Below, piece after piece: positions 2,783-34,545 of a DNA stretch of 64,000 nucleotides. Made by a program: the position numbers and the translations under genes. The stretch's first letter is position 1. Every line of letters starts with the position of its first letter. Location of the stretch: contig CANHGO010000004.1 of the NCBI GenBank assembly GCA_947460975.1, forward strand, positions 62,001-126,000, read 5' to 3'. The notes under the pieces were generated by a model. It did no database searches, was not told the origin of the DNA, and worked only from the letters and a program-made list of their open reading frames with translations. This stretch comes from Cytophagaceae bacterium (GTDB lineage Bacteria > Bacteroidota > Bacteroidia > Cytophagales > Spirosomataceae).

Positions 2783-3774
2783 AAAAATGTAAAGTTTAAT
2801 TTTTCTATTTCTTCTGGACTGGCCGCACCCGTTTCGCCGATTTTATGGATGGATATGTGGGCACATAAATTCGCAAATTCACAACATTCAGCGATACTCG
2901 CCCCCGAGGCTCTAGCCGCTGAAAATGCAGCGACAACCATATCGCCGGCGCCCACGGTGTCAATTTCCCCTTTGGGTTTAATGCCAGGCTGCCAATGAAA
3001 CTCTGTTGGACTTGCGTAGATTAATCCCCGCTCACCTAAGGTCACTAAGGCCCCCGTTTTTCGTTGGGAAACCCAATTTTTAATGATGGCAATCAAAGTT
3101 TCATCTAATGCTAATTGCTTCGGACTTAATTTTAATATGGCCCCTAGCTCAGATTCATTTACTTTTAATGGAATATCAGTAGCCTCACCACCTAAATTTC
3201 GTAGGTCGGCCAATGAACTTTTATTATGCTGATTAATGAGCGTTTGCAGCTTTTTGATAGTGGCCTTGTTTAATAAAGGATTTTGAAATTGTTCATTGAC
3301 AACTACCCAATCAAATGTGCCTATTTCAGTTTCTAAATGCTGAATTAATGTTTCAGATTTAGATTGGAATTGCTTGTTCTGAGTGCCAAAATCAATGCGA
3401 TTTAATTCAACATCTGCCCACATCGGTTTGGAATAAGTAGGTGTGTCGATATCCGAAAAGGGCAATAAATGGGAGGTGTCAATCGCTAATGATTGACATT
3501 GAAATAACATTTCTCTGCCAAATAAATCTGGGCCAATCGCCCCAAAGGCATAGGCCTTCGCTCCCAAAATAGACAAGTTTTTAGTCACGTTCCCCGCACC
3601 TCCTAAATAACCTTTCGGTTGATACCCCCAGAAAACATTTTTTCCGGTCTCCACCGAGAATTCTGTTGTTAACGTGTTTTCTTGAAAGTAAAAATCAACG
3701 GCAAAATCACCGATAACAGCGATTTTGATTTTTTGTATTTGACTTAAGATCTCTTTAAGCCGATTGGAATTCAT
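2779..3774 (-). CDS. PfkB-family carbohydrate kinase (RfaE/HldE kinase-domain-like)
   Basis: PfkB signatures: GGAGNVTKNLSILGAKAYAFGAIGPD and DTVGAGDMVVAAFSAA. 4-nt ATGA overlap with the AGE-family gene. Confidence 0.85.
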   Translation of the reverse strand: MNSNRLKEILSQIQKIKIAVIGDFAVDFYFQENTLTTEFSVETGKNVFWGYQPKGYLGGAGNVTKNLSILGAKAYAFGAIGPDLFGREMLFQCQSLAIDTSHLLPFSDIDTPTYSKPMWADVELNRIDFGTQNKQFQSKSETLIQHLETEIGTFDWVVVNEQFQNPLLNKATIKKLQTLINQHNKSSLADLRNLGGEATDIPLKVNESELGAILKLSPKQLALDETLIAIIKNWVSQRKTGALVTLGERGLIYASPTEFHWQPGIKPKGEIDTVGAGDMVVAAFSAARASGASIAECCEFANLCAHISIHKIGETGAASPEEIEKLNFTFL

Positions 3775-6424: not shown

Positions 6425-6430
6425 GAAACC

Positions 6431-6486
6431 TATTACCTATTACTTCTTACCTAATACCTATTACTTCTTACCTAATACTTCTTACC
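6431..6486. repeat. Degenerate heptanucleotide tandem repeat, ~8 units (TATTACC/TATTACT/TCTTACC/TAATACC)
   Basis: Direct reading: TATTACC TATTACT TCTTACC TAATACC TATTACT TCTTACC TAATACT TCTTACC, in the convergent gap between the cysteine desulfurase and proS. Confidence 0.9.
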
Positions 6487-6490
6487 TAAT

Positions 6491-7963
6491 TTAATAAGCT
6501 CTTGCGAATATCACCCGGTGCTCAGAATTTGCTCCTGTCAAAACGCATTTACCTGTTTCTTTTTTGACTCCCAAAGGAATGCAACGAATCGTTGCTTTGG
6601 TCAATTCCTTAATTTTTTCTTCCGTCTCAGAAGTGCCATCCCAATGTGCTGAGATGAATCCACCTTCTTCGATTTTCGTTTGAAATTCTTCCCAGCTATT
6701 CACTTCGTAGGTATTTGATTCACGGAAAGCGAATGCTTTGGCATAAATTTTTTCCTGGATGTCATTAAGTGTGTCAATGACCACTTGCTCGATACCGTCA
6801 AAAGGCATACTCGTTTTTTCACGTGTATCTCTTCTGGCTAATTCAATCGTTCCGTTTTCTATATCTCTGCCGCCAATCGCCAGGCGAATAGGAACTCCTT
6901 TTAATTCATATTCGGCAAATTTGAATCCAGGACTTTGATTTTCTGACGTATCAAATTTCACGGATACCCCTTGTTTTTTTAACCCTTTTACTAAGGGTTC
7001 TATTTTCTCTTTGATCAAGTTTAATTGTTCATCTCCTTTGTAAATAGGGACGATAACTACTTGGATTGGTGCTAATTTGGGAGGCAAAACTAAACCCTGG
7101 TCATCGGAATGTGCCATAATCAAAGCTCCCATTAAGCGCGTAGAAACTCCCCATGAGGTTCCCCAAACATAATCTAATTGGTTTTCCTTGCTTAAAAATT
7201 TTACGTCAAAAGCTTTGGCAAAATTTTGTCCTAAAAAATGAGACGTTCCCGCCTGCAATGCTTTCCCATCTTGCATTAATGCTTCGATGCAATAAGTTTC
7301 TTCCGCTCCCGCAAATCGCTCATTAGCCGTTTTTATACCCTTCAAAACAGGCATCGCCATGAAAGTTTCTGCAAACTCCGCGTATACTTCTAGCATTTGC
7401 TCGGTTTCGGCAATGGCTTCTTTTTTGGTGGCATGTGCTGTGTGACCTTCTTGCCACAAGAATTCGGCCGTTCTCAAGAAAAGACGCGTACGCATTTCCC
7501 AACGAACCACATTGGCCCATTGATTGATCAATAAGGGTAAATCTCGGTACGATTGAATCCAATTTTTATACGAGGACCAAATGACTGTTTCGGAGGTAGG
7601 TCGGACGATCAACTCCTCTTCCAGTTTTGCATCTGGGTCCACAATAACACCTCCACCATTGGGGTCATTTTTTAATCGATAATGTGTGACAACAGCACAT
7701 TCTTTGGCAAAACCTTCTACGTGTGAAGCTTCTTTGGAAAGGAATGATTTTGGGATAAATAAGGGAAAATAGGCATTGGTGTGTCCCGTTTCCTTAAACA
7801 TATCATCCAAGGCCCTTTGCATTTTCTCCCAGATCGAATATCCGTATGGTTTAATGATCATACAGCCTCTCACGGCAGAATTTTCAGCTAAATCAGCTCG
7901 TTTAACTAATTCATTATACCACTCAGAATAGTTTTCGGCGCGACTTGGTAGGGATTTACTCAT
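6491..7963 (-). CDS. proS: Proline--tRNA ligase (short/archaeal-eukaryotic-like form)
   Basis: 490 aa. [63 protein letters not shown]-like C-terminal zinc/AB domain. Confidence 0.93.
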
Positions 7964-29987: not shown

Positions 29988-30719
29988 ATGTCAAAATTAG
30001 GTAAATATTTAATCTTCCTAGGTAAGCTGTTCACAAATCCTGAAAAATTTAGGGTTTATTGGCCCTTGATTATGCAGGAGTGCATCGACATTGGAATAAA
30101 TTCTTTACTTATAGTCGCAATCGTTTCATCTTTTTTGGGAGCGGTTACTTGTGTTCAAACGGCTGCCAATATGGACAATCCGTTTGTTCCGCAATACATT
30201 ATCAGTTTAATCGTTCGAGATACCACTATTTTAGAGATGGGGCCCACGATTACCTGTGTTGTATTGGCTGGAAAAATTGGTTCTAACATCGCGGGCCAAT
30301 TGGGCACCATGCGAATCACCGAACAAATAGATGCGTTGGAGGTGATGGGGATAAATTCTAGGTCTTATTTAGTCCTTCCAAAGATTATTGCTGCCATGTT
30401 GACTTTTCCAATGTTGGTTACCTTAGCATGTTTTTTATCCATCTATGGAGGTTATTTGGCAGGTTGGTTGACCGGTTCCATTTCTCCTCAAGAATACATT
30501 CACGGTCTTCAATTTCAATTTAAGGGCAATTATATGTTTTTTGCCTTAATTAAATCCGTTGTGTTTTCCTTTATTGTAGTGACGATTTCGTCCTTTCAGG
30601 GTTTTTACACACAAGGTGGAGCTTATGAAGTGGGTAAGGCAAGTACTTCTGCAGTGACTAATTCATGTATTGCGATTCTGATTGCAGATTATCTTTTGGC
30701 CCAATTGTTAATCGGCTAA
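29988..30719 (+). CDS. mlaE: MlaE-family ABC transporter permease
   Basis: EMGPTITCVVLAGKIGSNIAGQLGTMRITEQIDALEVMGINSRSYLVLPKIIAAMLTFPML; CLSIYGGYLAG; GAYEVGKASTSAVTNSCIAILIADYLLAQLLIG. Probable start ATG 29988. Confidence 0.9.
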   Translation: MSKLGKYLIFLGKLFTNPEKFRVYWPLIMQECIDIGINSLLIVAIVSSFLGAVTCVQTAANMDNPFVPQYIISLIVRDTTILEMGPTITCVVLAGKIGSNIAGQLGTMRITEQIDALEVMGINSRSYLVLPKIIAAMLTFPMLVTLACFLSIYGGYLAGWLTGSISPQEYIHGLQFQFKGNYMFFALIKSVVFSFIVVTISSFQGFYTQGGAYEVGKASTSAVTNSCIAILIADYLLAQLLIG

Positions 30720-31570
30720 ACACGCTCAATACTTACTTTTGTTATCAATTCTGAGGTGGCAGATCCTCGATACGAACCAAATACGGGAGTGATTTCTTCT
30801 GGCAAGCATGACGCAGCCAAGGGAATGTGATTTCCTGCCACAACTTCATGTTGGGTAGGGTCATAGCCACGCCAACCGCCTCCCGGTAAGTACACTTCGA
30901 CCCAGGCATGTAAATGATGCGTTTGATTAGGGACATCCACAGGAGCGACGCCTACATAATATCCACTAACAAACCGAGTGGCTAAGCCCAATGCTCTGCA
31001 CAAGGCAGAAAATAAAACGGCATAATCACGGCATGAGCCTTTCCGATTGACCAACGTATATTCTGCTGAATTTGGAGCACCTTCCTCTCTAATTTCATAG
31101 GCAAATTGCTTGAATATAAATTCATTTAATTCGGATAAAAAAGAAGAGGTATTCCATTTGACTTGAGAAGCAATTTGCCTTGCGGTTTGTTCCACTAGGG
31201 TGCTAACTCCTTCTTGGCCTAAATAAGGACTCAGTGTTTTTTGATAGGAATGGGTGTAATTTAAGGGCAATGTTTTGCTCTCAAAGGGGAAATACACAAA
31301 GTCAAAAGGATTAAATTCTGTTGTTTCGACCACCGCATTCATCTCAATCTGAAGGGAATCAGTAGGTTCTTTGAAGAATAATATATTTTGAATGTTGCCT
31401 TCAGGATCTAAGTTTTTCGAAATTTGAACAGGCTTTGGGTTGATATCTAGCGTAAATGAATTGATCGTCAATAACGAACTTTTTCTAGGATGTAAATACA
31501 AAACATGTGGCTCTAGATTTACAGCTGCGCTATAATGATAGGTAAGCAAGTGCTTGATTTTTGCGATCAT
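30716..31570 (-). CDS. Transglutaminase-like cysteine peptidase family protein (with N-terminal bacterial transglutaminase-associated domain)
   Basis: IKHLLTYHYSAAVNLEPHVLYLHPR; RKGSCRDYAVLFSALCRALGLATRFVSGYY; HLHAWVEVYLPGGGWRGYDPTQHE (Cys-His-Asp). Confidence 0.9.
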   Translation of the reverse strand: MIAKIKHLLTYHYSAAVNLEPHVLYLHPRKSSLLTINSFTLDINPKPVQISKNLDPEGNIQNILFFKEPTDSLQIEMNAVVETTEFNPFDFVYFPFESKTLPLNYTHSYQKTLSPYLGQEGVSTLVEQTARQIASQVKWNTSSFLSELNEFIFKQFAYEIREEGAPNSAEYTLVNRKGSCRDYAVLFSALCRALGLATRFVSGYYVGVAPVDVPNQTHHLHAWVEVYLPGGGWRGYDPTQHEVVAGNHIPLAASCLPEEITPVFGSYRGSATSELITKVSIERV

Positions 31571-32304
31571 TTAGACGATGGGCTAGGCACTGAAATTAAA
31601 CTTTTCATCCATTCTTCGTCAATACTTTCTAACGAGTTTCTTAATGCGATATTCCACTCATCCGAAATTTTTTGCATGTCTTCTTTGTATAAACGCACCT
31701 CTTTTGCCTTAAAACTGTCTTTTTCATAAACGACTACGTCAATAGGGTAATCCACATCATTGGTACTTACCTGGGTTGCATCAAATGAAAGAAAGCCCAT
31801 TTTTAACGCATCTTTTAAAGAAGTGTCATGGTTTAGATTTCGATTCAAAAGGGGTTTCCCATAATTTGAATTGCCAATAATTTGGTATTTGAGTCCATCA
31901 TTGATTTCAATCCAGTTCCCCTCTGGAAATATTAAAAATAGTTTGTGAGTTGAGTCTTTCGGCATTTGGCCACCCACAATCGCATGAAGGTTAAAGTGGT
32001 ATCCTTCTTTTTCTAAGGTTTCTCGATCTTCTATGGCCACTTTTTTTAACATTTGACCAAAGGCCGTTGCCGCCTCATGCATGTAATTATAGGCTTCTTC
32101 TTGTTCTTCTACCGTTTGATTAAAGTAGATAACAGCTTTATCTCGAACGGATCTTAGGCCAGCTGTCATGATGAAAAGGCTATGGTCTTTAATTTCATGA
32201 ATGGAGATTTTTTTATTCGAATACATCTCATTTCCTGCCGTAATTCTAGTATCGGCAATAGCGATAATGCCTTCTTTCACTGTAATACCTAAGCAATATG
32301 TCAT
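31567..32304 (-). CDS. Anbu (ancestral beta-subunit / BPH) proteasome-type peptidase
   Basis: M-TYCLGITVKEGIIAIADTRITAGNEMYSNKKI...DHSLFIMTAGLRSVRDKAV. Start at 32304 places Thr2 as the mature N-terminal nucleophile. Located next to transglutaminase and alpha-E genes. Confidence 0.88.
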   Translation of the reverse strand: MTYCLGITVKEGIIAIADTRITAGNEMYSNKKISIHEIKDHSLFIMTAGLRSVRDKAVIYFNQTVEEQEEAYNYMHEAATAFGQMLKKVAIEDRETLEKEGYHFNLHAIVGGQMPKDSTHKLFLIFPEGNWIEINDGLKYQIIGNSNYGKPLLNRNLNHDTSLKDALKMGFLSFDATQVSTNDVDYPIDVVVYEKDSFKAKEVRLYKEDMQKISDEWNIALRNSLESIDEEWMKSLISVPSPSSK

Positions 32305-32359
32305 ATAAGGGAACTGCGTAATTTTGCGCAATATTACGATTTTTATTTAGAAGCCTATG

Positions 32360-33322
32360 TTAACTTACGGGCTTAATGTCAAAATAGGTGTTAAATACGG
32401 TTTGGCCTATTTCATTGTTCTTCGATTGGAAATCATCTAAAAATTGGTGCAGTCCAGTTTTTAAAATATCGTCAATTTCAGTAAACTCAATTTCTGATAA
32501 AAGTTTTGATATTTTCTTTTCTGCAGCATTTGAATATCCATGATCAAATGACGTTCCTGAAATCGCATAAAGTGATAATTCAGCTTCCTGAAGACAATGC
32601 ACAACGGACCTAGGAAAGCTTTTGTCGAGAATTAAAAATTCCACGATATGTGTAGGACTAATCACCTTATATTGCTGGCGAAACATATTATATGCAGAAA
32701 CTGATTTTAAAACGGCCGACCATAATAATAGATCTAAGGGTGATCCTATGGCGTCAATATCAGGAAGTAGGGTGAAGTATTTTACATCTAAAAAACGTGT
32801 CGTTTTATCTGCGCGCTCTAATAATTTACCCATTTGTCCAAAATGCCAACCTTCACCTCTGGTGATCGTCGAGTCGACGATCCCGTAAAATAGTTGGCTC
32901 CCAGATTTTATTTCTTCTAAAAATCCCTGGTAACGTGATATTTCCCAATTTTTACTTCCCTCCACACGATCCTTTACTTTCCAATATATTTGATTGACAT
33001 ACTCCCACATTTCTTTTGAAATGCTCTCTCGAATGGTACGAGCGTTTTCACGCGCGCTATATAAACAAGACAAAATGGAGTTGGGGTTGTCCACGTCAAA
33101 CGTCATAAAATGCAATACATTTTCACGATTGGCCACAGGATAATGCTCGAAAAAATTAAAGTGATCAGCTGTGGCGACAATCAATGGCTCCCATTGCTCG
33201 GGCACATTGGGTGGAAGATCCAAAGCTAAATTAAAATTAACCGAGATGAATCGCGCATAATTATCCGCTCTCTCAATGTAACGATTCATCCAATAAATGG
33301 AGTTAGCAACTCGACTTAGCAT
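32360..33322 (-). CDS. Alpha-E domain-containing protein (DUF403)
   Basis: MLSRVANSIYWMNRYIERADNYARFISVNFNLALDLP; REGWHFGQMGKLLERADKTTRFLDVKYF. Confidence 0.9.
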   Translation of the reverse strand: MLSRVANSIYWMNRYIERADNYARFISVNFNLALDLPPNVPEQWEPLIVATADHFNFFEHYPVANRENVLHFMTFDVDNPNSILSCLYSARENARTIRESISKEMWEYVNQIYWKVKDRVEGSKNWEISRYQGFLEEIKSGSQLFYGIVDSTITRGEGWHFGQMGKLLERADKTTRFLDVKYFTLLPDIDAIGSPLDLLLWSAVLKSVSAYNMFRQQYKVISPTHIVEFLILDKSFPRSVVHCLQEAELSLYAISGTSFDHGYSNAAEKKISKLLSEIEFTEIDDILKTGLHQFLDDFQSKNNEIGQTVFNTYFDIKPVS

Positions 33323-33510
33323 AGGTTTTTATTTTTATTAAATGCTTGATTATCCGAAGGATGCTTAAAATTATTGTTTTTTTTGAGACTTTCGTCAAGC
33401 AATGAATTTATTTTAATATACACTATTAAATCTACATTTTATCCTTGTTTTATTCCCATAAATTTGGCCAAATGTTGTATTTTTACATCGATTTATTTTT
33501 TAAAGAATCT

Positions 33511-34545
33511 ATGTTTTATCAAAATATTCTTAAACCTCTCTTATTCTTAGTTGATCCAGAGCTTGCTCATTATATAGTTGCCCACGGCTTGCGTTTGATC
33601 ATGAAAGTTCCAGGTGTTTCTTTAATTTTCAATTGGGTCTATGGGTTTAAGCATCAAGATTTATCGCGAGAGGTATTTGGTTTGAGATTTGAAAACCCGG
33701 TTGGCTTAGCCGCGGGATTTGATAAGAATGCGTATTCGGTGGATGATTATGCAAATCTTGGATTTGGATTTATTGAGGTTGGAACTGTTACTCCTAAGGC
33801 GCAAGCTGGAAATCCTACTCCCAGACTTTTCCGCTTGCCCCAAGATGAGGCCTTAATTAATCGGATGGGATTTAATAATGACGGCATGTTTGCCATGCAA
33901 AAGCGTTTGGCCGCTCGAAAGTCGAAAGTGATTGTAGGCGGTAATCTTGGTAAAAATAAAGTTACCCCAAATGAAGAGGCGGAGGAGGATTATTGCTTAA
34001 GTTTTGAAACGTTGTTCAACGATGTGGATTATTTTGCTGTCAATGTAAGTTCGCCCAATACCCCTAATTTAAGGGCTTTACAAGAAAAAGAGCCATTGAA
34101 AAAGTTATTAATGCGGTTGCAAAAATTGAATCAAAGTAAGCAAAAACCTAAACCAATCTTATTGAAAATTGCCCCAGATTTAACCAATGAGCAATTGGAT
34201 GATGTCATTGAGATTGTAATGGAAACTAAATTAGCTGGAATCATTGCCACCAATACGACAATTTCAAGGGATGGCTTGAAGTCCTCGGATAAATTGACAA
34301 ATGAGATGGGCGGCTTAAGCGGTCGGCCATTGCGAGAAAGGTCTACGGAAGTGATCGCCTATTTGTATGGCAAATCGAAAGGGAAAATTCCTATCATAGG
34401 TGTGGGTGGAATTCATTCTGCGGAGGATGCGATCGAGAAATTGAAAGCTGGGGCATGTTTAATTCAGCTCTATTCCGGGTTTGTGTATGAAGGGCCTGGC
34501 TTGATAAAAAAAATTAATCAGGCAATCCTTAAAAATGGTTTATAA
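33511..34545 (+). CDS. pyrD: Dihydroorotate dehydrogenase (quinone)
   Basis: [100 protein letters not shown] at 33511 preferred. Confidence 0.93.

Follow-up and report, generated by a model that had tools for sequence, protein, structure and literature searches.

A conserved alpha-E, Anbu and transglutaminase gene block in a Spirosomaceae bacterium, with the ATP-grasp partner dispersed on the chromosome in its relatives

The bacterial proteasome-like peptidase Anbu is frequently encoded in other phyla as part of a four-gene operon, in which it is accompanied by an ATP-grasp protein, an alpha-E protein and a transglutaminase (PMC5666114, PMC6376114). Anbu forms an open ring, the Yersinia protein showed no activity on standard peptides, no stable complexes were found, and the Yersinia ATP-grasp protein liberates phosphate from ATP (PMC6376114, PMC5666114). 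The amidoligase hypothesis for this system originates in PMC3268129, as cited by PMC5666114 and PMC6376114, and our literature searches returned no functional study of the Anbu system later than the structural papers. A first-pass annotation of the DNA considered here had taken the co-occurrence with these operon partners to be common to Anbu and BPH, and the two structural papers bear this out for Anbu, while for BPH no such statement was found.

The minus strand of the window, a stretch of 64,000 nucleotides from a Cytophagaceae bacterium, encodes alpha-E, Anbu and a bacterial transglutaminase one after another (33322-30716), and all three ORFs are intact (Table 1). Alpha-E and Anbu are separated by 55 nt, and an open upstream TTG start for Anbu is also present at 32331. 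The block is flanked by the divergent pyrD on one side and by the convergent mlaE on the other, with the stop codons of mlaE and the block overlapping by 4 nt. The gene order, coordinates, names and flanks given by the first-pass annotation, together with the ATGA overlap, agree with the ORFs, the Pfam matches and the sequence itself. As in the described Anbu operon, alpha-E and transglutaminase adjoin Anbu on one strand, and the fourth family, ATP-grasp, is encoded in relatives; unlike in that operon, the ATP-grasp gene is absent from the block and in relatives is a lone gene located far away.

Table 1. Features of the block and their positions in the window
Feature	Position	Strand	Details
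Alpha-E (DUF403) gene	32360..33322	-	320 aa; PF04168 E=4e-101 over 1-314
Anbu gene	31567..32304	-	245 aa from ATG; MTYCLG start; PF00227 E=1.9e-12; PDB Anbu chains best
Bacterial transglutaminase-like protein gene	30716..31570	-	284 aa; Bact_transglu_N PF08379 and Transglut_core PF01841
ATGA overlap, Anbu stop and transglutaminase start	31567..31570	-	4 nt, from sequence
Divergent intergenic region, alpha-E and pyrD	33323..33510		From sequence; ATG near 33511 chosen as the presumed pyrD start

The block is a genuine, already known, proteasome-like (Anbu) gene set of bacteria, and it is not a chance arrangement since dozens of related loci share its order, its dN/dS is low and its catalytic residues are conserved. 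The order FtsK-pyrD-(alphaE-Anbu-TG)-mlaE-SDR is found in almost all close, genus-level relatives in which the contig extends far enough, named Aquirufa strains included. Alpha-E remains together with Anbu in Arcicella, Flectobacillus and similar loci, mostly with the transglutaminase and usually with different flanks. Values of dN/dS for the block against two near relatives are 0.006-0.05, most comparisons with more distant relatives being saturated, and purifying selection on the block is strong.

The peptidase is clearly of the Anbu type, as the first-pass annotation had proposed. In a search of PDB sequences five Anbu chains come first (5loy, 5nyj, 5nyf, 5nyw, 5lox; E=4e-37 to 3e-22), followed by a single 20S chain at 3e-4, and there is no HslV chain among the matches. 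The alignment to the solved Anbu proteins runs from the Thr start over nearly the full length and shares Thr1, Asp17 and Lys, residues for which roles have been described (Thr1 as the nucleophile after Met, Asp17, Lys32/33; PMC6376114); the differences are a gap of one residue ahead of Lys when compared with 5loy, a shortened loop around residue 68 and a short extension at the C terminus. Met, T1, D17 and the KK pair (Lys30/31) are invariant in about 47 aligned relatives. That the protein is instead HslV or another Ntn hydrolase has a negligible chance of being correct: it matches the general Proteasome model PF00227 and, weakly, the archaeal beta model, as such a protein might, but its best PDB matches are all Anbu, its immediate neighbors are alpha-E, transglutaminase, pyrD and mlaE with no hslU next to it, and most closed relatives encode, besides Anbu, a second PF00227 protein that is shorter (a frame of ~180-200 aa), higher-scoring and consistent with HslV. 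The NCBIfam matches of the transglutaminase and Anbu are far under the cut-off and were disregarded. As a separate observation, the sole PF00227 protein of the closed same-genus genome G012 is Anbu, while other closed family genomes mostly add the shorter HslV-like protein (data from G012 and G000), and on the basis of this one closed genome the genus may have lost HslV.

Alpha-E is the best conserved of the three proteins (76-93% identity to 12 other aligned loci); its PDB sequence search gave no meaningful match and its predicted structure is poor (mean pLDDT 55.7). The core domain of the transglutaminase contains a Cys180-His221-Asp237 triad, as read from the sequence and the alignment, and the Cys is retained in all aligned loci except one. 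In that exception (L043:8870-9700), which is beside alpha-E and Anbu, Asn replaces the catalytic Cys (KGNNND rather than KGSCRD) in an open frame with the His and Asp regions retained, which may reflect an inactive enzyme or an error of assembly. In three further loci (L063, L064, L069) alpha-E adjoins the transglutaminase with no Anbu between them, and in the genome of L069 (G050) Anbu is encoded elsewhere.

The genome-wide search for a circularly permuted (CP) ATP-grasp that the first-pass annotation had proposed finds none in the source assembly, which is 1.5 Mb including the window and 62.6% complete; among same-genus genomes, 34 of 38 have one. The genus protein, which matches both CP-ATP-grasp Pfam models and has PDB 3n6x as a relative, is encoded by a lone gene of about 476 aa with conserved surroundings in the members examined; its downstream neighbors in relatives include a diaminopimelate-decarboxylase-like gene, and a distance of 719 kb separates it from Anbu in closed genome G012. 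When the 19-kb ATP-grasp neighborhood of G019 was used as the query in the genus genomes lacking a match, two of the four misses (G027 and G037) were found to have the 3′ tail of the gene at a contig edge. In G027 one contig ends just ahead of ATP-grasp and contig C148 begins with AAGGATACTTGGGTGCTATACTAG, which reads KDTWVLY-stop, the end of the protein, and in G037 contig C52 begins inside its last 30 codons. The third, G030, is broken between positions 3003 and 12011 of the neighborhood, an interval that spans ATP-grasp, and in the fourth, the source assembly itself, the neighborhood matched nothing but a short dispersed repeat. Hence all four misses are assembly gaps, and true loss is seen in none of the genus genomes; the gene goes unseen here since its region is missing from the assembly, and, judging from its relatives, this genome presumably carries it.

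A dispersed tandem array with a 7-bp unit (approximately TAGGTAA / TTACCTA; examples at 6425-6496 of the window and at L058:9449-9656) occurs at numerous places in these genomes, with both orientations often represented. One copy is directly downstream of ATP-grasp, and the contig ends of several relatives fall at or near that copy, so the array probably explains why assemblies break there.

To place these results in the wider family we surveyed 183 genomes, comprising those at least 90% complete and the window's own. ATP-grasp is present in 179 of them and Anbu in 177, and in 21 of the 23 closed genomes the two genes are at least 131 kb apart. The dispersed ATP-grasp is the norm of the family and does not represent a loss. 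The most stable pairing is that of the transglutaminase with Anbu (16 of the 23 closed genomes have them within 10 kb), alpha-E being this close to Anbu in eight. The two closed genomes with ATP-grasp within 10 kb of Anbu (G042 and G119) have ATP-grasp, alpha-E and Anbu clustered, with the Anbu-near transglutaminase being a large protein of ~1100 aa, and in G199 ATP-grasp, alpha-E and transglutaminase are clustered. In a tree whose root is arbitrary and in which long branches meet, the ATP-grasps of these three genomes, which are ~50% identical to the genus copy, are grouped separately from the lone ones, and those fused to alpha-E form a third group (~32% identity). The fusion belongs to a second set in some relatives, consisting of a CP-ATP-grasp/alpha-E fusion (~855 aa), a transglutaminase and a large (~1150 aa) transglutaminase protein; the domain families are the same as here, but it is a separate lineage, and the closed genomes encoding it have no Anbu within 10 kb of it.

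No genome with Anbu and without ATP-grasp was confirmed, as each of the three candidates from the family search (the source genome, G027 and G030) has a gap at the locus. The reverse does occur, in that five genomes (G052, G093, G100, G101 and G102) have ATP-grasp, alpha-E and transglutaminase without an Anbu match, some of them being 90-94% complete and G101 99%; in G101 and G052 alpha-E adjoins the transglutaminase. One genome, G160 (2.7 Mb, 99% complete), lacks all four genes as well as any PF00227 protein. This pattern is consistent with the ligase being the core of the system and Anbu a processing component that depends on it. It is a correlation drawn from a single family and from few independent events; genes present in nearly every genome of one family say little about coupling, and the whole set is absent from one genome only.

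We consider it highly probable that the block is the alpha-E/Anbu/transglutaminase part of the known four-component Anbu system in its Spirosomaceae lineage, the fourth component being a lone CP-ATP-grasp of ~476 aa presumably encoded elsewhere on the chromosome, a judgment that concerns identity and arrangement and not chemistry. Since ATP-grasp is absent locally and is a lone gene elsewhere in relatives, the arrangement is a dispersed version rather than the canonical four-gene operon. The three genes could instead be a self-sufficient module of transglutaminase and Anbu with alpha-E as the scaffold, the lone ATP-grasp serving another pathway, as might be read from its lack of linkage in nearly all closed genomes, its retention in the five Anbu-less genomes, and the transglutaminase-Anbu pairing being steadier than that of alpha-E with Anbu. 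This we regard as unlikely given that Anbu without ATP-grasp is confirmed in zero genomes, that the clusters in G042, G119 and G199 unite ATP-grasp with members of the block, and that other phyla often encode all four genes as an operon; it is just as doubtful that, within the family, the block has been functionally split from the amidoligase as an autonomous transpeptidation or peptide-processing module. That this lineage truly lost ATP-grasp and kept the Anbu block as an orphan would agree with the lack of a match in the source genome and is very improbable, as that assembly is incomplete and lacks the entire neighborhood rather than the gene alone, near relatives carry the gene, and strong purifying selection acts on the block. 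This reading was dropped after the neighborhood search placed the misses in assembly gaps.

The first-pass annotation's description of the block as lacking ATP-grasp is accurate locally and is not a property of the system, since the ligase is dispersed in relatives and its neighborhood is missing from the assembly; of the two options offered for the ligase, elsewhere or missing, the same evidence supports the former. The block looks unusual because the assembly is incomplete and the arrangement is, across the family, a dispersed one, and a "missing partner" is unreliable when read from a window of a partial assembly.

For the dispersed Anbu system a tentative mechanism, whose details and chemistry are hypothetical and somewhat less likely right than wrong, would have ATP-grasp, partnered by alpha-E, activate a carboxylate at the expense of ATP so that a peptide or protein acquires an amide or isopeptide bond, and the transglutaminase-fold protein and the Anbu ring, with its Thr1 nucleophile, might then cut, transfer or remove the product. 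Such a scheme would place Anbu downstream of the ligase, as its dispensable processing or recycling part. In this family Anbu is found only with the ligase, or with the ligase hidden in an assembly gap, and not the reverse. The scattered but retained components, together with the genomes that have naturally lost either Anbu alone or the whole set, offer a route to ordering the steps of the system.
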